Of a DNA stretch of 64,000 nucleotides, positions 25,124-34,703 are shown piece after piece. The DNA lies in NCBI GenBank assembly GCA_947375135.1, contig CANCER010000002.1, positions 149,029 to 213,028 on the forward strand, in the 5' to 3' direction. The position numbers and the translations under genes were made by a program. This stretch comes from Comamonadaceae bacterium (GTDB lineage: Bacteria > Pseudomonadota > Gammaproteobacteria > Burkholderiales > Burkholderiaceae_C). Position 1 is the first letter of the stretch. The number at the start of each line of letters is the position of its first letter. The notes beneath the pieces were generated by a model. The model did no database searches. It was not told where the DNA came from and saw only the letters and a list, made by a program, of their open reading frames with translations.

Positions 25124-25366
25124 TTAAAAGTGGGGGTGATTCACCTCATGGGACGGCAGCGACAGGATCACGGTCAGTGCACCTGCAATCGATATCACCA
25201 GCCAAAACACAAAAAAGCTGAGCGTATAGACCGCCTGGCGCGATATGTCGAAGGACTGGCCGAACCAATTCATGTCCTGCGGGTCGATCACGGCAAACAC
25301 CAGCAATTCCAGCACGCCGGCCATCAGGAACGAGGGCCATGCAATCCACATCCATTTTTTTGTCAT
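25124..25366 (-). CDS. small two-helix membrane protein linked to ccoG
   Basis: 80 residues with two or three hydrophobic stretches (WPSFLMAGVLELLVFAVI and TLSFFVFWLVISIAGALTVIL). The Shine-Dalgarno AAGGAG is 10 nt upstream of the ATG. It follows ccoG by 32 nt and is probably co-transcribed. Small proteins of this kind next to ccoG are usually annotated as hypothetical; a role in cytochrome oxidase assembly is a guess from position. Confidence 0.65.
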   Translation of the reverse strand: MTKKWMWIAWPSFLMAGVLELLVFAVIDPQDMNWFGQSFDISRQAVYTLSFFVFWLVISIAGALTVILSLPSHEVNHPHF

Positions 25367-25398: not shown

Positions 25399-26859
25399 CT
25401 AGCGCGGAACGATGAATACAGCCTTTTCGGACACATGCTGGTCCAGCCCCGGCGCGTCAATCTTAAAGTGAATCGTGTGCGAGCCGGGCTCCGCCCCCTC
25501 GTACGGCAATTGAAGCCGCACCGGCACCCAGCGTGATTGCGTGGATTCAATGACCACGTCCTCTTCGCTGGCGACTTTCAGATCGTGCAAGCCGTCCACG
25601 GAGATATGGAAATTCTGCGTGCTCTCGGTGGCATTCATGATCTGGATGCGGAACACATTCTCGATCCGGCCGCCTTCTGCAATGCGCGCAAGCGAACCGC
25701 GGTCGCGCACCACGTCCACCTTGAACGGGATGCGCAGCGCCAGGCTGATGGCCATACCTGCCACCACCACACCCAGTATGGCCGTGTAGATCAGCACGCG
25801 GGGGCGAAACACGTGGCTGATCGTTTGCGCCTTGGTCCACTTCTGCTCCAGGGCATGCTCGGTGGTGTATTTCACCAGGCCGCGCGGGTAACCGACCTTG
25901 TCCATCACGGTGTCGCAGACATCGGCACAGGCGCCGCAGCCTATGCACTCGTATTGCAGGCCGTTGCGGATGTCGATGCCGGTCGGGCAGACCTGAACAC
26001 ACAGGCTGCAATCCACACAGGCGCCCAGATGGAGGGTGGAAAGGTCCGCCTTTTTGCTGCGCGCACCGCGCGGCTCGCCTCGCTCCGTGTCATAGGTGAC
26101 GATGAGTGTGTCTTTGTCGAACATGGCGCTCTGGAAGCGGGCATAAGGGCACATGTATTTGCAGACCTGCTCGCGCATGAAGCCGGCGTTGCCCCAGGTG
26201 GCAAAGGCGTAGAAAAAGGTCCAGAAGATTTCCCAGGAGCCCAGGTCCCATGTGATGAACTCGGTGGCCAGCGTGTGGATAGGGGTGAAGTAGCCCACAA
26301 AAGTGAAGCCGGTCCACAGGGCCAGCGTGATCCACATGAACTGCTTGGCGGACTTGCGGGCCAACCGTTCCAGCGACCAGGGGGCCGCATCGCGGCGCAT
26401 GCGCATGGAGCGGTCGCCCTCGGCCAGCTTTTCCAGCCACAGGAACATTTCGGTGTAGACCGTTTGCGGGCAGGCATAGCCGCACCAAAGCCGCCCGGCC
26501 ACGGCGGTAAACAGGAACAGCGAATAGGCCGAAATCACCAGAATGCCGGTGAGGTAGATGAAGTCCTGCGGGTACAGCACCAGCTTGAAAATGTAGAAGC
26601 GCCGCGCGCCCAGATCAAACAGCACCGCCTGGCGCTGGCCCCATTCCAGCCAGGGCAGGCCATAAAAAATGAGCTGCGTCAGGAACACCAGAATCCAGCG
26701 CCAACGCGAAAACACGCCGCTCACACTGCGTGGGTAAATCTTCTTGTGCGCCTGGTAGAGCGACACCAGAACCGGATCGGCACCGGGCGGCGGCTCAATA
26801 GGCTCGGTCGAGACCGTGAGGGGAATGACTTTTTTGACGGGGGTTTTGGAATCAGACAC
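25399..26859 (-). CDS. ccoG: cytochrome c oxidase accessory protein CcoG (RdxA/FixG family)
   Basis: 486 residues. N-terminal membrane segments (WILVFLTQLIFYGLPWL, GILVISAYSLFLFTAVAG), a CGYACPQ motif, then two ferredoxin-type clusters: CVDCSLCVQVCP and CIGCGACADVC. A C-terminal Ig-like domain faces the periplasm. CcoG has been linked to copper delivery and reduction for cbb3 oxidase assembly. The start is GTG at 26859. It is divergent from the RND pump genes; an FNR-type box and a repeated 17-bp element lie in its promoter region. The ccoNOP genes are not in this window. Confidence 0.93.
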   Translation of the reverse strand: MSDSKTPVKKVIPLTVSTEPIEPPPGADPVLVSLYQAHKKIYPRSVSGVFSRWRWILVFLTQLIFYGLPWLEWGQRQAVLFDLGARRFYIFKLVLYPQDFIYLTGILVISAYSLFLFTAVAGRLWCGYACPQTVYTEMFLWLEKLAEGDRSMRMRRDAAPWSLERLARKSAKQFMWITLALWTGFTFVGYFTPIHTLATEFITWDLGSWEIFWTFFYAFATWGNAGFMREQVCKYMCPYARFQSAMFDKDTLIVTYDTERGEPRGARSKKADLSTLHLGACVDCSLCVQVCPTGIDIRNGLQYECIGCGACADVCDTVMDKVGYPRGLVKYTTEHALEQKWTKAQTISHVFRPRVLIYTAILGVVVAGMAISLALRIPFKVDVVRDRGSLARIAEGGRIENVFRIQIMNATESTQNFHISVDGLHDLKVASEEDVVIESTQSRWVPVRLQLPYEGAEPGSHTIHFKIDAPGLDQHVSEKAVFIVPR

Positions 26860-26894
26860 TTGGAACTTCTAACTTAAAGCTGGTTAACGCAATA

Positions 26895-26911
26895 ATACCC
26901 ATACCCGTATA
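26895..26911. repeat. operator-like repeat copy 1 (ATACCCATACCCGTATA)
   Basis: Identical 17-bp sequence to 26963-26979. It overlaps a possible ccoG -10 element (TATTAT on the minus strand, 26897-26892), so a protein bound here would block ccoG. The A/T ends around C-runs resemble CsoR-family operators; a CsoR-family gene lies at 33192. Confidence 0.55.
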
Positions 26912-26918
26912 GGTCGAA

Positions 26919-26932
26919 CTGATCTAAATCAA
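26919..26932 (-). promoter_or_regulatory. FNR/Anr-type site upstream of ccoG (one mismatch)
   Basis: CTGATCTAAATCAA fits TTGAT-N4-ATCAA with one mismatch. With TATTAT at 26897-26892 as the minus-strand -10, the centre falls at about -41, the class II activator position. FNR control is usual for ccoG-type genes. Confidence 0.65.
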
Positions 26933-26962
26933 TCATTCACCCAAACAGGCAAGCCATTGAAG

Positions 26963-26999
26963 ATACCCATACCCGTATACAAAATACGGTACGGGGTAT
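26963..26999. promoter_or_regulatory. operator-like repeat copy 2 plus inverted partner before RND operon
   Basis: ATACCCATACCCGTATA (26963-26979) is followed after 4 nt by ATACGGTACGGGGTAT (26984-26999), nearly its reverse complement. The pair sits between a TTGAAG -35-like hexamer (26957) and the start codon at 27011, a natural repressor position. Confidence 0.55.
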
Positions 27000-27010
27000 A
27001 AAATTACGGC

Positions 27011-28102
27011 ATGCAAAAACTTCTCTCCACCCCATTGTGCCCTCGCTTGCGCAGAAGCGCCGCCGGTTTATGCCTTTTTGCCGCCGGCGTCAGCCTGGCC
27101 TGGGCGCAGGGCTCTGCTGTACCCACTGCCACCGTGCAAACCAGTGCCGCAGACAGCGGCACGACACTGGACGGAGTGGTTCAGGCCGTGAAGCAAAGCA
27201 CCGTGGCAGCTCAAACCACCGGGCGCATTGCCACCTTCACCGTCAAGGCTGGCGACAAGGTGCGCGCCGGCCAGGTGCTGGCCACGATTGACGACCGCGA
27301 AGCACAGGTGGGCATGCAACACGCCCAGGCCCAGGTGAACCAGGCCGACGCCGAGTTGCGCAACGCCCAGGCCCAGATGGAGCGCACCCGCAATCTGCAG
27401 ACCCAGGGCTTTGTGAGCAAGGCGGCGCTGGACACGGCCGATGCCCAGTACCAGAGCGCCCGGGCGCAGCGTGAACAGGCCGACGCCAGCACGCGCCAAT
27501 CGGCCCTGGCCCAGGGCTATACCCGCGTGACTGCGCCCATCGATGGCTGGGTACTGCAAACATTTGCCCAGGCCGGTGATCTGGCCGTGCCCGGCAGCCC
27601 CCTGTTGGTGGTGTACGCGCCCCAGCCCCTGCGCGCCGTGGTGCAAGTGCCGGCCTCGCGCAGCCTGGCCGTGCGCCAGGCCAAGCAAACCGCCGTACTG
27701 GTAGACACCGGCGCGGGCGTGCTGCAAAGCATTGCGCCGCTGAACCGCCTGGAGGTGCCCTCCAGCGACCCGGTCTCGCAAACCACCGAATGGCGCATGG
27801 ACCTGCCGGCCAGGGAAGCCGCCGCATTGCTGCCCGGCCAACAGGTGCGCGTGCGCTTCACGGGGGCAGAAGGGCCCCCCGGTTCTTCCCGACTGCTGGT
27901 GCCCGCCTCGGCAGCGGTGCGCCGCGGTGAACTCAGCGCCGTGTATGTAGCCTCCGGCAAGACCTTTGCCCTGCGCGCTGTGCGTCTGGGCCGCGAGGGC
28001 GCCGAAGGCGTGGAAGTGCTGGCCGGCCTGCGCGCCGGGGAAGTCGTCGCCACCGATCCGGTGCGCGCCGCCCAGACCCCTGCAGCGCCTGCGGCCAAGT
28101 GA
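27011..28102 (+). CDS. RND efflux periplasmic adaptor (MFP/HlyD type)
   Basis: 363 residues. A signal peptide (GLCLFAAGVSLAWAQ) is followed by the lipoyl half-motifs (VKQSTVAAQTTGRIATFTVKAGDKV and later VTAPIDGWVLQTF), a helical hairpin rich in Ala/Gln, and beta-barrel and membrane-proximal regions to the end. It bridges the inner-membrane pump and an outer-membrane channel. It is the first gene of the sulfide-related transcript and ends 7 nt before the pump gene. The outer-membrane channel gene is not in the window. Confidence 0.88.
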   Translation: MQKLLSTPLCPRLRRSAAGLCLFAAGVSLAWAQGSAVPTATVQTSAADSGTTLDGVVQAVKQSTVAAQTTGRIATFTVKAGDKVRAGQVLATIDDREAQVGMQHAQAQVNQADAELRNAQAQMERTRNLQTQGFVSKAALDTADAQYQSARAQREQADASTRQSALAQGYTRVTAPIDGWVLQTFAQAGDLAVPGSPLLVVYAPQPLRAVVQVPASRSLAVRQAKQTAVLVDTGAGVLQSIAPLNRLEVPSSDPVSQTTEWRMDLPAREAAALLPGQQVRVRFTGAEGPPGSSRLLVPASAAVRRGELSAVYVASGKTFALRAVRLGREGAEGVEVLAGLRAGEVVATDPVRAAQTPAAPAAK

Positions 28103-28109
28103 GCCCCGA

Positions 28110-31100
28110 ATGACCAATTCGGTAACTCCCCTGGGTATCTCCGGCCGCATCGCCGCCGCATTTCAGAGCAACGCGCTCACCCCCTTGCTGGCCCTGGTGG
28201 CGCTCCTTCTGGGCATTTTTGCCGTACTGGTCACACCGCGCGAGGAAGAGCCGCAAATCAATGTAACCATGGCCAATGTGCTAATCCCCTTCCCCGGGGC
28301 CAGCAGCGCCGATGTGCAGAACATGGTGGCCAAGCCGGCCGAGCAGGTGCTGGGCCAGATTGCCGGCATCGACCACACCTATTCCGTGGCGCGCCCCGGC
28401 CTGGCCATCCTCACCGTGCAATTCAAGGTGGGCGTGGCCCGCACCGAGGCGCTGGTGCGCCTGTATGACGTGCTCAACGCCCACCAGGACTGGCTGCCGC
28501 GCGATCTGGGCACCTTGACGCCTATCGTCAAACCCAAGGGCATTGACGATGTGCCGGTGGCCGCATTGACGCTGTGGAGCAAGGATGCCACCTCCGCTGC
28601 TGAACTGGAAACCGTGGCCCATGCCGTGGAGGCCGACCTCAAGGCGGTGGCCGGTGTGCGCGAGGTGCAAACCATTGGCGGCCCGGGCCAGGCCATTCAG
28701 ATTGCCGTCAACCCCGAGCGTCTGCGCGCCCGTGGGGTCGACCTGCTGAGCCTGCAAAAAACCGTGGCCGCCGCCAACTCCGGCATGCCGGCCGGCGCCG
28801 TGCTGCAAGGCAACGCCTCCGCCACACCGGGCGCGGGCTCGCAGATGCTGACGGTGGAAGCCGGCGAGTTCCTGCGCAACGCGGACGATGTGGCCGATAT
28901 GGTGGTCGGGGTGAGCAACGGCAAACCCGTCTTTTTGCGCGATGTGGCAGATGTCACAGCCGGCACACAGCAAGCCCAACACTACGTCTGGTTCACGCCC
29001 GGCGCGGCCTACGCCGCAACCGCCGAAAGCCGCGCGACCGATGCAACAGCAGCCCCGGTGGCCGGCCAAAGCTATCCGGCCGTCACGATACAGGTCACCA
29101 AAAAGCCCGGCGAAAACGCGGTGGACGTGTCCGGTGCGGTGCGCGAGCGCATGGACGCGCTGCGCAACACCGTCATCCCCGCAGGCATGGAAGCCAGCGT
29201 CACCCGCGACTACGGCCAGACCGCTGCAGAAAAAGCCAATAAGCTGATCCAGAAACTGGCCTTTGCCACCGGCTCGGTGATTCTGCTGGTGGGCCTGGCC
29301 CTGGGCCGGCGCGAGGCGCTGATCGTGGGTGCGGCCGTGATCCTGACCCTGACCGCCACGCTGTTTGCCTCCTGGGCCTGGGGCTTTACGCTCAACCGCG
29401 TGTCGCTGTTTGCACTGATCTTCTCCATCGGCATTCTGGTGGACGATGCCATCGTGGTGGTGGAAAACATCCACCGCCACCAGCAGCTCACGCCCGATCT
29501 GCCGCTGCGCAAGATCATCCCGCGCGCGGTGGATGAGGTGGGCGGCCCCACCATCCTGGCCACGCTGACCGTGATCGCCGCCCTGCTGCCCATGGCCTTT
29601 GTCTCCGGCCTGATGGGGCCGTACATGAGCCCGATCCCGATCAACTCCAGCTTAGGGATGGCGATTTCGCTGGCCATTGCGTTTACGGTGACACCCTGGC
29701 TGGCGCTGAAGTTCATGCGTGAGCACAGCGGCGCCGGTGGCATGCATTCCGTCGGCAGCACCGGCTCTACCAGTTCCACCAACGCCACCAGCAGCGGCAG
29801 CGGCAGCGGCCATGGCACCGCGGCGGCACCCTCCAAGGTAGCGCGCATCTTCGGCGTCCTCCTGACCCCCCTGCTGAACAGCGCCCGCAAACGCTGGTTG
29901 CTGCTGGGCGGCATTCTGGTGGCGTTGATGCTGTCGGTGGGCCTGGCCCTGGTGCAACTGGTGGTGCTGAAGATGCTGCCCTTTGACAACAAGAGCGAGT
30001 TCCAGGTGGTGATCGACATGCCGGCCGGCACGCCGCTGGAAGACACGGCCGCCACGCTGCAGGAGCTGGGCGCCTTTCTGGCCACGCAGCCGGAAGTCAC
30101 CAACCTGCAGGCCTATGCTGGCACCGCCTCGCCCATCACCTTCAACGGCCTGGTGCGCCAGTATTACTTCCGCGCAGATCCCGAGCAGGGCGACCTGCAG
30201 GTCAATCTGGTGGACAAGCACCACCGCAGCGACAAGAGCCATGTGATTGCCCAGCGCCTGCGCCCGGCCCTGGAAAAAATCGGCCTGGCCCACCATGCCC
30301 GCGTCAAGGTGGTGGAAGTGCCGCCCGGCCCGCCGGTGATGTCACCCCTGGTGGCCGAGGTCTATGGCCCGGATGAGGCCGGCCGTCAGAAACTGGCCGC
30401 GCAGATTGCCGCCTCTTTCGCCGCCACGCCCGACATCGTCGGTGTGGACACCAGTCTGCGTGAAGACGCGCCGCGCGCCTTCCTGCGCGTGCGCCGCCAG
30501 CGCGCCGAGTCGCTGGGCATTCCGGTGGCTGCGATTGCACAAACCGTGTCGTCGGCCCTGTCCGGTGCAGACGCCGCCTATCTGCATGATGGCTATTCCA
30601 AATACCCCGTGCCGGTGCGCATCCAATTGCCGCTGGAAGCCCAGGTCGGTCTGGACGCCATTCTGGCCCTGCCGATGCGCGCGGCGGCTACCGCAGGGGC
30701 CTCCGGTCCGGGCCAACTCGTGCCCCTGTCAGCCCTGGTGCAGGTGGAGCATGGCGTCATCGACAAGCCGCTCTACACCAAGGACCTGAAAGGCGTGAGC
30801 TATGTGTTTGGCGACATGGCCGGCAAGCTGGATTCGCCGCTGTACGGCCTGTTTGGCATACGCTCCACCATGCGTACCAGCGCCGACCCGGCCGCCAAAA
30901 TCCAGACCGAGGCCATGGGTGAATACTGGATCAAGCAGCCCTCCGACACCTACCGCCAATACGCGCTGAAGTGGGACGGCGAGTCGCAAATCACCTACGA
31001 GACCTTCCGCGACATGGGTGCCGCCTACGGCGTGGGCCTGATCCTGATCTACCTGCTGGTGGTGGCGCAGTTCAAGAGCTACCTGACCCCGCTGGTGATC

Positions 31101-31517
31101 ATGGCGCCGATTCCCTTGACCATCATCGGCGTCATGCCGGGCCATGCCCTGCTGGGCGCCCAGTACACCGCCACCAGCATGATCGGCATGATTGCGCTGG
31201 CCGGCATCATCGTGCGCAACTCCATCCTGCTGGTGGACTTTATCGAGCTGCAGGTGCGCGAAGGTGTGGACTTCAAGACGGCCGTGCTGCAGTCGGCCAT
31301 CGTGCGGGCGCAGCCGATTGTGCTGACCGGCCTGGCCGCCATGATCGGCGCCTTCTTTATTCTGGACGACCCGATCTTCAACGGGCTGGCCATCTCCCTG
31401 ATTTTCGGCATTCTGGTGTCCACCCTGCTCACGCTGGTGGTGATACCCGTCCTGTATTACGCGCTGTACCGGCGTCGTATGGAGTCGCGCGCAGACGCGG
31501 CCCTTCTTGCAACCTGA
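28110..31517 (+). CDS. RND efflux transporter permease
   Basis: 1135 residues from the ATG at 28110 (the track start at 27966 lies in the upstream gene). Twelve helices and two large periplasmic loops are expected; the proton-relay region IGILVDDAIVVVENIHRH is visible. The second half repeats the pattern (GMIALAGIIVRNSILLVDFIEL). A Gly/Ser/Thr-rich insert (GSTGSTSSTNATSSGSGSGH) lies in the cytoplasmic link between halves. The subfamily fits hydrophobe/amphiphile exporters rather than metal pumps. Position in an operon with SQR and persulfide dioxygenase suggests a cargo linked to sulfide stress; this is inference. Confidence 0.88.
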   Translation: MTNSVTPLGISGRIAAAFQSNALTPLLALVALLLGIFAVLVTPREEEPQINVTMANVLIPFPGASSADVQNMVAKPAEQVLGQIAGIDHTYSVARPGLAILTVQFKVGVARTEALVRLYDVLNAHQDWLPRDLGTLTPIVKPKGIDDVPVAALTLWSKDATSAAELETVAHAVEADLKAVAGVREVQTIGGPGQAIQIAVNPERLRARGVDLLSLQKTVAAANSGMPAGAVLQGNASATPGAGSQMLTVEAGEFLRNADDVADMVVGVSNGKPVFLRDVADVTAGTQQAQHYVWFTPGAAYAATAESRATDATAAPVAGQSYPAVTIQVTKKPGENAVDVSGAVRERMDALRNTVIPAGMEASVTRDYGQTAAEKANKLIQKLAFATGSVILLVGLALGRREALIVGAAVILTLTATLFASWAWGFTLNRVSLFALIFSIGILVDDAIVVVENIHRHQQLTPDLPLRKIIPRAVDEVGGPTILATLTVIAALLPMAFVSGLMGPYMSPIPINSSLGMAISLAIAFTVTPWLALKFMREHSGAGGMHSVGSTGSTSSTNATSSGSGSGHGTAAAPSKVARIFGVLLTPLLNSARKRWLLLGGILVALMLSVGLALVQLVVLKMLPFDNKSEFQVVIDMPAGTPLEDTAATLQELGAFLATQPEVTNLQAYAGTASPITFNGLVRQYYFRADPEQGDLQVNLVDKHHRSDKSHVIAQRLRPALEKIGLAHHARVKVVEVPPGPPVMSPLVAEVYGPDEAGRQKLAAQIAASFAATPDIVGVDTSLREDAPRAFLRVRRQRAESLGIPVAAIAQTVSSALSGADAAYLHDGYSKYPVPVRIQLPLEAQVGLDAILALPMRAAATAGASGPGQLVPLSALVQVEHGVIDKPLYTKDLKGVSYVFGDMAGKLDSPLYGLFGIRSTMRTSADPAAKIQTEAMGEYWIKQPSDTYRQYALKWDGESQITYETFRDMGAAYGVGLILIYLLVVAQFKSYLTPLVIMAPIPLTIIGVMPGHALLGAQYTATSMIGMIALAGIIVRNSILLVDFIELQVREGVDFKTAVLQSAIVRAQPIVLTGLAAMIGAFFILDDPIFNGLAISLIFGILVSTLLTLVVIPVLYYALYRRRMESRADAALLAT

Positions 31518-31545
31518 AAACCTCAAAGAACCAGGAGACACAACC

Positions 31546-32856
31546 ATGGCCCATATCGTGATCGTCGGCGCAGGAATCGGTGGCATGCCCGCCGCCTATG
31601 AACTGCGCGAGCTGCTACCCAAGGAACACAAAGTCACCGTCGTGAATGCGGTGGACTACTTCCAGTTCGTGCCCAGCAACCCCTGGCTGGCCGTGGGCTG
31701 GCGCCAGCGCGAGGAAATCACGCTGCCGATCCGGCCCTATCTGGAACGCAAGGGCATTGCCTTTATTGCCCAGCCGGTGACCGCCATCAACGCCGAAGCC
31801 AACAGCCTGACCCTGGGTGACGGCCAGAACCTGGCCTATGACTACCTGGTCATCACCACCGGCCCCAAGCTGTCATTCAGCGAAGTGCCGGGTGCAGGCC
31901 CCCTGGCGCATGGCGGCGGCGGCTTCACCCATTCCATCTGCAGCGTGGACCATGCGCAGGCCTTCTGGGCCGACTACGAAAACTTCCTGAAGAACCCTGG
32001 CCCGCTGGTGATTGGTGCCATGCCGGGCGCGAGCTGCTTCGGCCCGGCCTATGAGTTCGCCTTCATCCTGGACACCGACCTGCGCCGGCGCAAGCTGCGC
32101 CACCTGGTTCCCATGACCTATGTGAGCAGCGAGCCCTACATCGGCCACCTGGGCCTGGGCGGCGTGGGCGACAGCAAGAGCATGCTGGAGTCCGAAATGC
32201 GCAACCGCGACATGAAGTGGATCACCAATGCCAAGACCACGCGGGTCGAAGAAGGCAAGATGTTTGTCACCCAGCTCGACGACCTGGGCAATGTCTACAA
32301 AGAGCATGAGCTGCCCTTCAAGCTGTCGATGATGCTGCCGGCCTTCAAGGGCGTGGAGGCGGTGGCGGCCGTGCCGAATCTTTGCAACCCGCGCGGCTTT
32401 GTGCTGATCGATGCGTTTCAGCGCAGCAAGGCCTACCAGAACATCTTCTCCGCCGGTGTCTGCGTCGCCATCCCGCCGGTGGAAGTCACCCCGGTGGCCA
32501 CCGGCACACCCAAGACCGGCTACATGATCGAGAGCATGGTGGGCGCCATTGCCCACAACATTGCCGATGAGCTGGCCGGCAGGCCCGCCACTGCCAAAGG
32601 CACCTGGAACGCCATCTGCCTGGCCGACATGGGTGACACCGGTGCCGCCTTTGTGGCGCTGCCGCAGATTCCGCCGCGCAATGTGAACTGGTTCAAGAAG
32701 GGCAAATGGGTGCATCTGGCCAAGATTGCCTTCGAGAAATACTTCATGCGCAAGATCAAAAAAGGCACCTCCGAGCCGGTGTACGAGAAATACGTACTGC
32801 GGGCACTGGGCATCGCCCGCCTGGCCGACAAGGTGCACCTGCCGCACCACCACTGA
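31546..32856 (+). CDS. sqr: sulfide:quinone oxidoreductase (SQR)
   Basis: 436 residues from the ATG at 31546, with Shine-Dalgarno AGGAGA. The FAD-binding GAGIGG is near the N-terminus. Cys132, Cys164 and Cys358 (in TWNAICLADMGD) match the three redox cysteines of Acidithiobacillus SQR (128, 160, 356 from memory). The C-terminal KIAFEKYFMRKIKKG is the amphipathic membrane-binding segment. It oxidises sulfide to polysulfide or persulfide and reduces quinone in the inner membrane. The persulfide dioxygenase encoded downstream would process the product. Confidence 0.9.
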   Translation: MAHIVIVGAGIGGMPAAYELRELLPKEHKVTVVNAVDYFQFVPSNPWLAVGWRQREEITLPIRPYLERKGIAFIAQPVTAINAEANSLTLGDGQNLAYDYLVITTGPKLSFSEVPGAGPLAHGGGGFTHSICSVDHAQAFWADYENFLKNPGPLVIGAMPGASCFGPAYEFAFILDTDLRRRKLRHLVPMTYVSSEPYIGHLGLGGVGDSKSMLESEMRNRDMKWITNAKTTRVEEGKMFVTQLDDLGNVYKEHELPFKLSMMLPAFKGVEAVAAVPNLCNPRGFVLIDAFQRSKAYQNIFSAGVCVAIPPVEVTPVATGTPKTGYMIESMVGAIAHNIADELAGRPATAKGTWNAICLADMGDTGAAFVALPQIPPRNVNWFKKGKWVHLAKIAFEKYFMRKIKKGTSEPVYEKYVLRALGIARLADKVHLPHHH

Positions 32857-32876
32857 TTCAAACCAAGGAAAAAACC

Positions 32877-33101
32877 ATGACCGTAGACCGCTATATCCAC
32901 CTCTTTGCCGGCAGCTTTATTTTGATCTCGCTGGCCTTGGGCATAGACGCCAGCCCGCTATTTGTATCGCATTGGTGGTTGGTCTTCACCGCCTTTGTCG
33001 GCGCCAACCTATTCCAGTTCGGCATCACCAATGCCTGCCCCATGGGCTGGATGTTGAAGAAGCTCGGTGTACCGGAATCGAATCTGGCCTGTCAGAAATA
33101 A
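32877..33101 (+). CDS. DUF2892 / YgaP-like membrane protein
   Basis: 74 residues from the ATG at 32877, 20 nt after sqr. Two hydrophobic segments (HLFAGSFILISLALGI and WWLVFTAFVGANLFQFGI) are followed by ITNACPMGWMLKKLG, the typical ending of the YgaP transmembrane module; in YgaP this module is fused to a rhodanese. A membrane helper for sulfane-sulfur handling is plausible. The track's 131-residue ORF starts inside sqr and is too long. Confidence 0.85.
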   Translation: MTVDRYIHLFAGSFILISLALGIDASPLFVSHWWLVFTAFVGANLFQFGITNACPMGWMLKKLGVPESNLACQK

Positions 33102-33191: not shown

Positions 33192-33482
33192 ATGAGCGTT
33201 TTGAAAGACCAAACGGCTAGAACCGACGTGCTCAACCGCCTGCGCCGTGCCGAGGGCCAGTTGCGCGGCATCCAGCGCATGGTGGAAGAAGGCGAGAACT
33301 GCCTGAAGATCGGCCAGCAGTTCTCTGCCGTTCGCAAAGCGCTGGACAGTACCTATCTGCGCATGACCGTGTGCTTTCTGGAGCAAGAACTGAACGCCCG
33401 CATCCAGCCCGATGCGGCGCAAAAGACCGATTTGGATCTGATGATCAAAGACATGGAAACCCTGCTGGCACGCATAGGCTAG
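33192..33482 (+). CDS. CsoR/FrmR-family repressor with atypical Cys pair
   Basis: 96 residues from the ATG at 33192; an in-frame ATG at 33153 is an alternative. The family core RLRRAEGQLRGIQRMVEEG is clear. Cys37 is at the usual first ligand site. The second Cys (61) lies 24 residues later, not 29 as in CsoR and CstR, and the Cu(I) His position is not His. So copper sensing is unlikely, and a persulfide-type sensor built with a shifted cysteine is possible. Between sqr-DUF2892 and the persulfide dioxygenase, it is the natural regulator of this operon. Confidence 0.82.
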   Translation: MSVLKDQTARTDVLNRLRRAEGQLRGIQRMVEEGENCLKIGQQFSAVRKALDSTYLRMTVCFLEQELNARIQPDAAQKTDLDLMIKDMETLLARIG

Positions 33483-33593: not shown

Positions 33594-34703
33594 ATGCAAC
33601 CTATACAGCTCTTTGACCTCGCCTCCAGCACCTATACCTATGTGCTGTTTGATCCTGTTTCCCGCGATGCGCTGATCGTCGACCCGGTCGATGCGCAGAT
33701 CGAACGCGATCTGGAAGTGCTCACAAGCCATGGCCTCACGCTGCAATGGACCGTTGAGACCCATGCCCACGCCGACCACATCACCAGTGCAGGGCTTCTG
33801 GCAGAACATGCCGGAGCAAAAACTGCCGCCCCCGCCGGCTGCGGAATACAAACCGCTGCCGTGCAATTGAAGGACGGCGATACGCTGCGTTTTGGCGAAG
33901 AAACCCTCCAGGTCTTGCACACGCCGGGCCACACCAGCGGCAGCATGAGCTTTGTCTGGCGCGAGAACCTGTTCAGCGGCGACACCCTGCTGATCAACGG
34001 TTGCGGCCGCACCGACTTTCAGTCCGGCAGCGCGGCGGCGCTGTACCACAGCCTCACACAGATTTTGTTTACCCTGCCAGACGCCACCACGGTCTGGCCG
34101 GGCCACGATTACCAGGGACGCACCCATTCCACCATCGGCCAAGAAAAGGCGCATAACGCCCGGGTCGCAGGCAAAACACTGCAGGAATTCACGGCCATCA
34201 TGGACGCACTCAATCTCCCGAAACCCAAACGCATAGACGAAGCGGTACCCGCCAACCTCACCTCCGGTGTACGCCATGACGCCCATGGTGCAGGCCTGAC
34301 CGAACCCCAAGCTGCGGACGGCTATGCCGGCGACCTTTCCTCCGCCCTGGCCTATGCCTGGTGGCAGGCCGGTGAGGCCGTGCTGGTGGATGTGCGCACC
34401 GACGCCGAGCGCGAATGGGTCGGCTTCGTACCCGGCGCTGTGGCAGTGGCCTGGAAGCTTTGGCCCGGAATGGCCATGAATCCGGATTTCGATACGGAGT
34501 TGCAGGCCGCAGTGGGCAGCAAAAAAGTGATGCTCTTGTGCCGCAGCGGCGTGCGCTCTGTGGCTGCGGCCAAACGCGCTACGGAGTTGGGCCTCTCGGC
34601 CTACAACATCCTCGAAGGTTTTGAGGGTGACCCGGATAGCGATGCCCACCGGGGCAACAAGGGGGGCTGGCGCTACTCCGACCTGCCCTGGCGCCAAGGC
34701 TGA
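33594..34703 (+). CDS. persulfide dioxygenase-rhodanese fusion
   Basis: 369 residues from the ATG at 33594. The N-terminal metallo-beta-lactamase fold has [15 protein letters not shown] and the ETHE1 hallmark GCGRTDFQ with WPGHDY, which identify a glutathione-persulfide dioxygenase with mononuclear iron. From about 260 a rhodanese domain follows ([13 protein letters not shown]) with active-site Cys in LLCRSGVRS. The dioxygenase makes sulfite from GSSH; the rhodanese moves sulfane sulfur to or from glutathione or thiosulfate. Together with SQR this is a complete sulfide-detoxification pair. Confidence 0.9.

Follow-up and report, generated by a model that had tools for sequence, protein, structure and literature searches.

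Predicted CsoR-family operators shared by an RND-sulfide operon and a divergent second ccoG in Comamonadaceae

Introduction

Sulfide inhibits heme-copper oxidases. Of the repressors considered here, BigR has an ArsR fold and is not a DUF156 protein, and we know of no respiratory assembly gene in the CstR regulon. The sulfane-sulfur repressor ScCsoR of Streptomyces coelicolor binds a 16-bp ATACC-n6-GGTAT site that occurs twice per promoter (PMC7533328). It was disulfide formation, and not the other effector tested, that lowered DNA binding by TTHA1953 of Thermus thermophilus (PMC10318464). In other bacteria, CcoG acts as a cupric reductase (Marckmann 2019, cited in PMC8267372). In searchable papers, cytochrome bd induction is a known tie between sulfide detoxification and oxidase maintenance and cbb3 assembly is not, and searches there for csoR with RND pumps and sulfide, or for ccoG with sulfide and FNR, found no such system described.

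The locus analyzed here lies in a 64,000-nucleotide stretch of a Comamonadaceae genome, called the window; the nearest named loci place this genome in the Rhodoferax group. The original prediction held that repeated operators between ccoG and an RND pump operon with sulfide genes could let one regulator, most likely of the CsoR family, couple cytochrome oxidase assembly to sulfide or persulfide stress. The regulatory region is real and conserved, and comparative genomics supports the coupling of sulfide to ccoG well, with corrections for a third operator unit, an FNR box, and a second ccoG copy. Two findings go beyond the earlier reading: a perfect operator unit at a rhodanese operon elsewhere in the genome and a regulator that lacks the copper triad.

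Results

The 17-bp sequence ATACCCATACCCGTATA occurs in two identical copies, as the original prediction had it, on the plus strand of the window at 26895-26911 and 26963-26979. Both copies fall within the 151 nt that separate the divergent starts of ccoG (26859, minus strand) and the adaptor gene (27011, plus strand), so the divergent promoter region was also correctly described. A scan of the window at up to 3 mismatches gave no further match (0 expected in shuffles), and the whole genome (4,223,425 bases) contains the exact sequence two times, both in this intergenic region. The repeat is real, but the true unit is 16 bp, ATAC-N8-GTAT, is palindromic in its outer bases, and is present three times (A, B, and C; Table 1); the two-copy description also overlooked an FNR-type box between the copies. 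The inverted partner assigned to the second copy exists but is imperfect, matching the reverse complement of that copy at 12 of 16 positions, and is better called a further unit. Units A and B have all 8 fixed outer bases, and their right half ends in CGTAT, not GGTAT; their affinity could be lower or their specificity shifted because this half lacks the GG of the ScCsoR sites. Their inner octamer is ordinary in that 50% of random ATAC-N8-GTAT sequences score as high against a matrix built from relatives. The adaptor ATG has no clear Shine-Dalgarno sequence and lies ~10 nt past a TATAAA (window 26996-27013); either the pump mRNA has almost no leader or its transcription starts further upstream.

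Table 1. Coordinates of the predicted regulatory elements and genes in the window
Feature	Coordinates	Strand	Remarks
ccoG, second copy	25399..26859	-	TIGR02745, 502 bits, cut-off 317
-10-like TATTAT, predicted ccoG promoter	26892..26897	-	Overlaps the end of unit A; relatives keep the distance to the FNR box
Operator unit A, ATACCCATACCCGTAT	26895..26910	.	ccoG promoter; 7 distinct relatives agree in 14/16 columns
FNR/ANR-type box, TTGATTTAGATCAG (minus strand), reading CTGATCTAAATCAA at 26919-26932	26919..26932	-	Core conserved
Operator unit B, ATACCCATACCCGTAT	26963..26978	.	Pump promoter; 15/16 columns invariant; homologous unit in 62/65 loci
Operator unit C, ATACGGTACGGGGTAT	26984..26999	.	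Earlier "inverted partner"; starts 5 bp past unit B
RND periplasmic adaptor (MFP)	27011..28102	+	TIGR01730
RND permease	28110..31517	+	PF00873
Sulfide:quinone reductase (SQR)	31543..32856	+	Solved SQR 3sz0, E 1.7e-175
YgaP-like membrane protein (DUF2892 type)	32871..33101	+	PF11127
CsoR-family (DUF156) repressor, proposed ligand of A-C	33192..33482	+	PF02583, E 4.1e-20; Cys37, Cys61
Persulfide dioxygenase-rhodanese fusion	33597..34703	+	BpPRF 5ve3, E 7.3e-59; ETHE1 4chl, E 4.3e-57

The unit was followed through 65 non-redundant loci that hold csoR, an RND gene, and an MFP adaptor. ATAC-N8-GTAT lies upstream of the MFP gene in 62 of these loci (102 sites altogether), and replacing the 8-bp spacer with one of 3-7 or 9-15 bp left 0-4 loci for each length. 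The presence of unit B and its homologs agrees with the earlier placement of one copy in the pump promoter. Two of the three exceptions (L067 and L069) have an MFP that is only 34% identical, and the third has a one-base variant. Tandem pairs are frequent in relatives, and successive units are most often 5-6 bp apart, as in ATACCCAATGGGGTAT-5-ATACTACGTGGGGTAT. In other genera the region upstream of this pump operon does not contain the 17-bp sequence; the common element there is the 16-bp form, often with a left-hand run of C and a right-hand run of G (ATACCCTAATGGGTAT, ATACCCCAGGGGGTAT). A search of the family genomes for the 17-bp motif with 2 mismatches was uninformative because real sites differ in their inner bases. 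Outside the FNR box, only 2 of the 38 columns in the A-B spacer are invariant among seven distinct close relatives, the window included. The units can outlast the pump: in L128 the pump has decayed to fragments and A-C are intact beside csoR and a dioxygenase gene, and Rhodoferax lacus (L124) has lost the pump and kept a B-like unit, with unit A degenerate. For several csoR genes that lack a pump upstream, a search of 1.5 kb found no unit. These comparisons support the assignment of ATAC-N8-GTAT as a CsoR-family-type operator that travels with the csoR/RND operon across Comamonadaceae.

The metagenome bin Ki1-2-7m_bin-791 has three csoR loci (L128, L140, and L192) that are 93%, 82%, and 63% identical to that of the window, and one of the three combines a fragmentary pump with all three units intact.

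The 96-aa protein encoded at 33192 is the only DUF156 member in the genome and matches the Trns_repr_metal domain (PF02583) with 72 bits against a cut-off of 22.8. An alignment of 92 sequences places Cys37 at position X at the start of helix 2, where nearly all sequences have a cysteine and L079 does not, and a second conserved cysteine, Cys61, is found 24 residues further on; the pair is kept in orthologues, and the cysteine site falls at a dimer interface. Positions Y and Z of the Cu(I) X-Y-Z triad (Cys-His-Cys) are occupied in this ungapped alignment by Phe62 and Glu66. A Cu(I)-sensing CsoR is therefore disfavored, since the His/Cys ligands are absent and the curated score is too low (RicR model, 43 bits, cut-off 175). 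FrmR identity, and with it formaldehyde sensing, was rejected because residue 2 is Ser in place of the Pro2 that FrmR has beside Cys35 and the score of 32 bits falls below the curated cut-off of 133. The RicR, FrmR, and RcnR scores all lie far under their curated cut-offs, and by these models the CsoR-family protein of a large Comamonadaceae group fits no curated subfamily. The original prediction named this protein as the most likely regulator, and the choice is supported by the unit at 62 of 65 loci, by the single DUF156 gene, and by the ScCsoR class of the site. The L079 orthologue has Ala in place of Cys37 and keeps the second Cys; neither a pump nor a unit lies within 1.5 kb of it, and this regulator has perhaps changed function.

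The operons of the relatives share an unvarying core, MFP-RND-DUF2892-csoR. SQR is absent from about half of them and the dioxygenase from most, and OsmC-like and SLAC1/TDT genes are inserted between DUF2892 and csoR in relatives. Linkage to SQR, persulfide dioxygenase, or rhodanese genes, which characterizes the CstR and ScCsoR sensors, is found here, and the 29-residue cysteine spacing of those sensors is not; with the cysteines 24 residues apart, the persulfide chemistry is uncertain. The SQR and the persulfide dioxygenase-rhodanese fusion in the operon point to sulfide or persulfide as the likely signal, and the analysis suggests a role for the RND pump in sulfur stress.

ATAC-N8-GTAT occurs at 12 sites genome-wide, compared with 9 for a reversed control pattern. 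Among the 12, only A-C and one site on contig C11 combine promoter position with conservation or sulfur context, and a wide genome regulon was rejected on these counts. Of the others, the site at C34:29525 is inside an ORF in a phage-like region and that at C34:33052 precedes an unassigned ORF. The C11 site is a perfect unit, ATACCCCATGGGGTAT, upstream of a CMD-methyltransferase-rhodanese operon, and five further genomes of the genus retain the unit ahead of the CMD gene. This operon (~41319-42730 of C11; L227:3320-4731) encodes a CMD/AhpD-like protein, a TPMT-like methyltransferase, and a rhodanese under ATACCCCATGGGGTAT and is divergent from a MerR-family gene. It is a likely second target of the CsoR-family protein. 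Given the sulfur genes of the operon, the unit at the rhodanese operon, the Cys37/Cys61 pair, and the absence of copper ligands, the best reading of the 33192 protein is a thiol-based reactive-sulfur sensor that is not a CstR by residue position.

The predicted promoter of ccoG would add a second input. On the ccoG strand the order is FNR box, 8 nt, unit A, and then the -10-like TATTAT (26897-26892) over the end of unit A, and the earlier claim that one copy overlaps a ccoG -10 candidate stands. A class II FNR promoter has a TTGAT-N4-ATCAA-type box ~41.5 bp before the transcription start, together with a -10. The box TTGATTTAGATCAG has one mismatch to this type, and its center is 28.5 bp from the start of TATTAT, or ~-40.5/-41.5 relative to the inferred ccoG transcription start. 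L150 has the same geometry with TATTCT at the same position relative to the FNR box. In the seven distinct close relatives, window included, 10 of the 14 FNR box columns are invariant. The genome encodes two proteins of the FNR type, each with CxxCx5C and a further, central Cys, one of them adjoining the ccoP-linked ccoG. From the promoter geometry we infer that ccoG would need both FNR and loss of the repressor; with its own FNR box, the gene would respond jointly to oxygen and sulfur.

Of the non-redundant loci, 7 of the 8 with a divergent ccoG carry a further upstream unit, versus 0 of 57 others (Fisher p 1e-8, a value that overstates independence because the loci are related and the ccoG association comes from two lineages). 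The close group has A and B 67-69 bp apart. A second group (L150, L151, and L160) has a ccoG-side unit of different sequence (ATACAGGTATGGGTAT in L150); there the distance to the pump units doubles, with the 8-nt gap to the FNR box and the place of the -10 unchanged. Across loci the A-to-B distance goes from 67 to 77 to ~143 bp with the 8 nt to the FNR box constant. A strict ccoG-side unit is missing from L161/L108, L103, and L137, where ccoG is also next door, and the unit is degenerate in L124. Taken together, the data support a ccoG-side copy that is conserved and specific to loci with ccoG as neighbor. Among cultured environmental strains, Rhodoferax sp. TH121 has the divergent arrangement.

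The window ccoG is not the only one in the genome. The other gene (C78:1572-3026) is 73% identical and directly follows ccoP, the usual place, and no unit was found at its promoter. Among the loci examined, ccoG promoters that do not adjoin csoR have no unit, with L216 as the sole exception, and in csoR-bearing genomes of other genera ccoG is mostly ccoP-linked and, L216 excepted, without a unit. The coupling of oxidase assembly to sulfide stress therefore survives in part. The conserved, specific ccoG-side unit and the sulfur genes of the operon favor it, but oxidase assembly as a whole is not placed in the regulon because the genome has two ccoG copies and the one that follows ccoP, unlike that of the window, lacks a unit. 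The ccoG tree has csoR-adjacent genes at two separate places, and its starred branches force at least 2 changes; the csoR-ccoG association consequently had two origins or was altered through replacement or loss. The composite ccoG arrangement is seen with two separate ccoG lineages.

Three observations concern ccoG more broadly. In L216 (genus G034) the ccoP-linked ccoG has an FNR box, TTGATGCCGATCAA, and a unit, ATACCTTAGGGGGTAT, at L216:1391-1406, close to the start codon and with csoR 28 kb off; this is perhaps an independent case of the same coupling, or chance. In L223/L239 (G049) a ccoG 88% identical to that of the window immediately follows the CMD gene, close to a dioxygenase-like gene, and is not csoR-adjacent, which by gene order is a second kind of link between the window ccoG lineage and sulfur genes. 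An 80-aa membrane-type ORF follows ccoG in the window (25124-25366, minus strand) and has no Pfam or NCBIfam match. Its homologues stand beside ccoG in most Comamonadaceae ccoG loci, including ccoP-linked ones, and its product is a possible uncharacterized CcoG partner.

Discussion

The preferred reading, given a probability of about 0.7, is that A-C are operators of the 33192 protein, with persulfide-type derepression of both promoters and an additional requirement for FNR at ccoG. Binding of the units by a CsoR-type repressor is almost certain from the comparative data, and the repressor is probably sulfur-sensing. That the unmodified tetramer represses and persulfide releases it from DNA is modeled on ScCsoR and on knowledge of the family. 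In the uninduced state, tetrameric repressor would occupy tandem B and C at the pump/SQR/csoR promoter and also unit A, between the FNR box and the ccoG -10, and RNA polymerase would be blocked at both promoters. SQR would oxidize sulfide to sulfane sulfur (persulfide or polysulfide), which would modify the repressor cysteines and cause release. The RND-SQR-csoR-persulfide dioxygenase operon would then be made, with csoR limiting its own expression, and the divergent ccoG copy would be made only when FNR is also active, which means at low oxygen. Extra CcoG might, speculatively, help rebuild a sulfide-stressed cbb3 oxidase or supply it with copper; support of the oxidase by CcoG when sulfide damages it or ties up copper is likewise a speculation. 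Joint control of the duplicated ccoG in Rhodoferax/Curvibacter by a Cys37/Cys61 reactive-sulfur DUF156 repressor and FNR through a composite promoter is a more tentative proposal, held at somewhat short of even odds.

The CsoR-family protein might bind the units but sense Cu(I), another metal, formaldehyde, or the RND substrate, with the sulfur genes as passengers. This is unlikely given Phe62 and Glu66 at the Cu(I) ligand positions, the absence of the FrmR Pro2, RicR, FrmR, and RcnR scores far under curated cut-offs, and a rhodanese operon as the second likely target, even though the invariant core lacks SQR (not present in about half of the relatives) and the dioxygenase (not present in most) and a copper link is conceivable for CcoG as a cupric reductase (Marckmann 2019, cited in PMC8267372). 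Ownership of the sites by another regulator is highly improbable: the site class is identical to that of ScCsoR, the unit stands at 62 of 65 csoR-linked pump promoters, and the genome has only one DUF156 protein. Such a regulator would account for the pumpless csoR genes that have no unit within 1.5 kb, and the inner octamer of A and B could be counted as atypical in its favor.

Unit A could be an auxiliary operator for the pump promoter, for example through looping, with every unit bound by the repressor and ccoG merely an FNR-controlled neighbor; all units do lie inside one 151-nt region, and the A-B distance is nearly constant in the close group. This is quite unlikely, since that distance varies twofold across loci with A fixed at the ccoG -10 and at 8 nt from the FNR box, and none of the 57 loci without a ccoG neighbor has the further unit. 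The identity of the two copies is what a recent duplication would leave, but the copies and their positions are conserved across species, the intervening DNA is not, and shuffles predict zero copies. Conservation and the spacer-length control rule out chance or simple duplication, and the probability left to a functionless repeat is negligible.

Under the preferred reading, sulfide defense and a respiratory helper gene appear under one switch, and a spare copper/assembly factor would be made only at low oxygen and high persulfide. The analysis defines a regulon with a precise predicted operator, comprising RND-SQR-csoR, the rhodanese operon, and a ccoG copy, in a large Comamonadaceae group. 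A duplicated ccoG whose promoter would bring an oxygen regulator together with a probable persulfide repressor offers a directly testable link.

The locus resembles the ScCsoR system in its DUF156 repressor beside persulfide dioxygenase and rhodanese genes, its 16-bp operator class, its autoregulation (predicted here), and its Cys37 at the start of helix 2, and differs in having Cys61, 24 residues on, where ScCsoR has Cys66, 29 residues on; the RND pump, SQR, ccoG, and FNR site of the present locus are not named for the ScCsoR circuit in the passages covered (PMC7533328). TTHA1953 is also a DUF156 repressor of sulfur genes with a TAC/GTA-type operator and two cysteines, but its operator is TACNNTACNNNNGTANNGTA and its sox targets are far from the regulator gene (PMC10318464). 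The CstR proteins of Staphylococcus and Enterococcus are DUF156 dithiol repressors whose targets include SQR and rhodanese-type genes, and their Cys31/Cys60 spacing of 29 is not matched by Cys37/Cys61. The BigR operon of Xylella and Agrobacterium shows a comparable physiological link, with a sulfide-responsive repressor that controls a persulfide dioxygenase needed for low-oxygen respiration (PMC5823870); unlike the present case, the BigR target includes no oxidase assembly gene. Induction of cydAB (cytochrome bd) in Acinetobacter and E. coli is a further case in which sulfide stress alters respiratory oxidase gene expression, but there a sulfide-insensitive oxidase is induced, whereas the candidate target here is an assembly factor of a heme-copper oxidase (PMC7315123).
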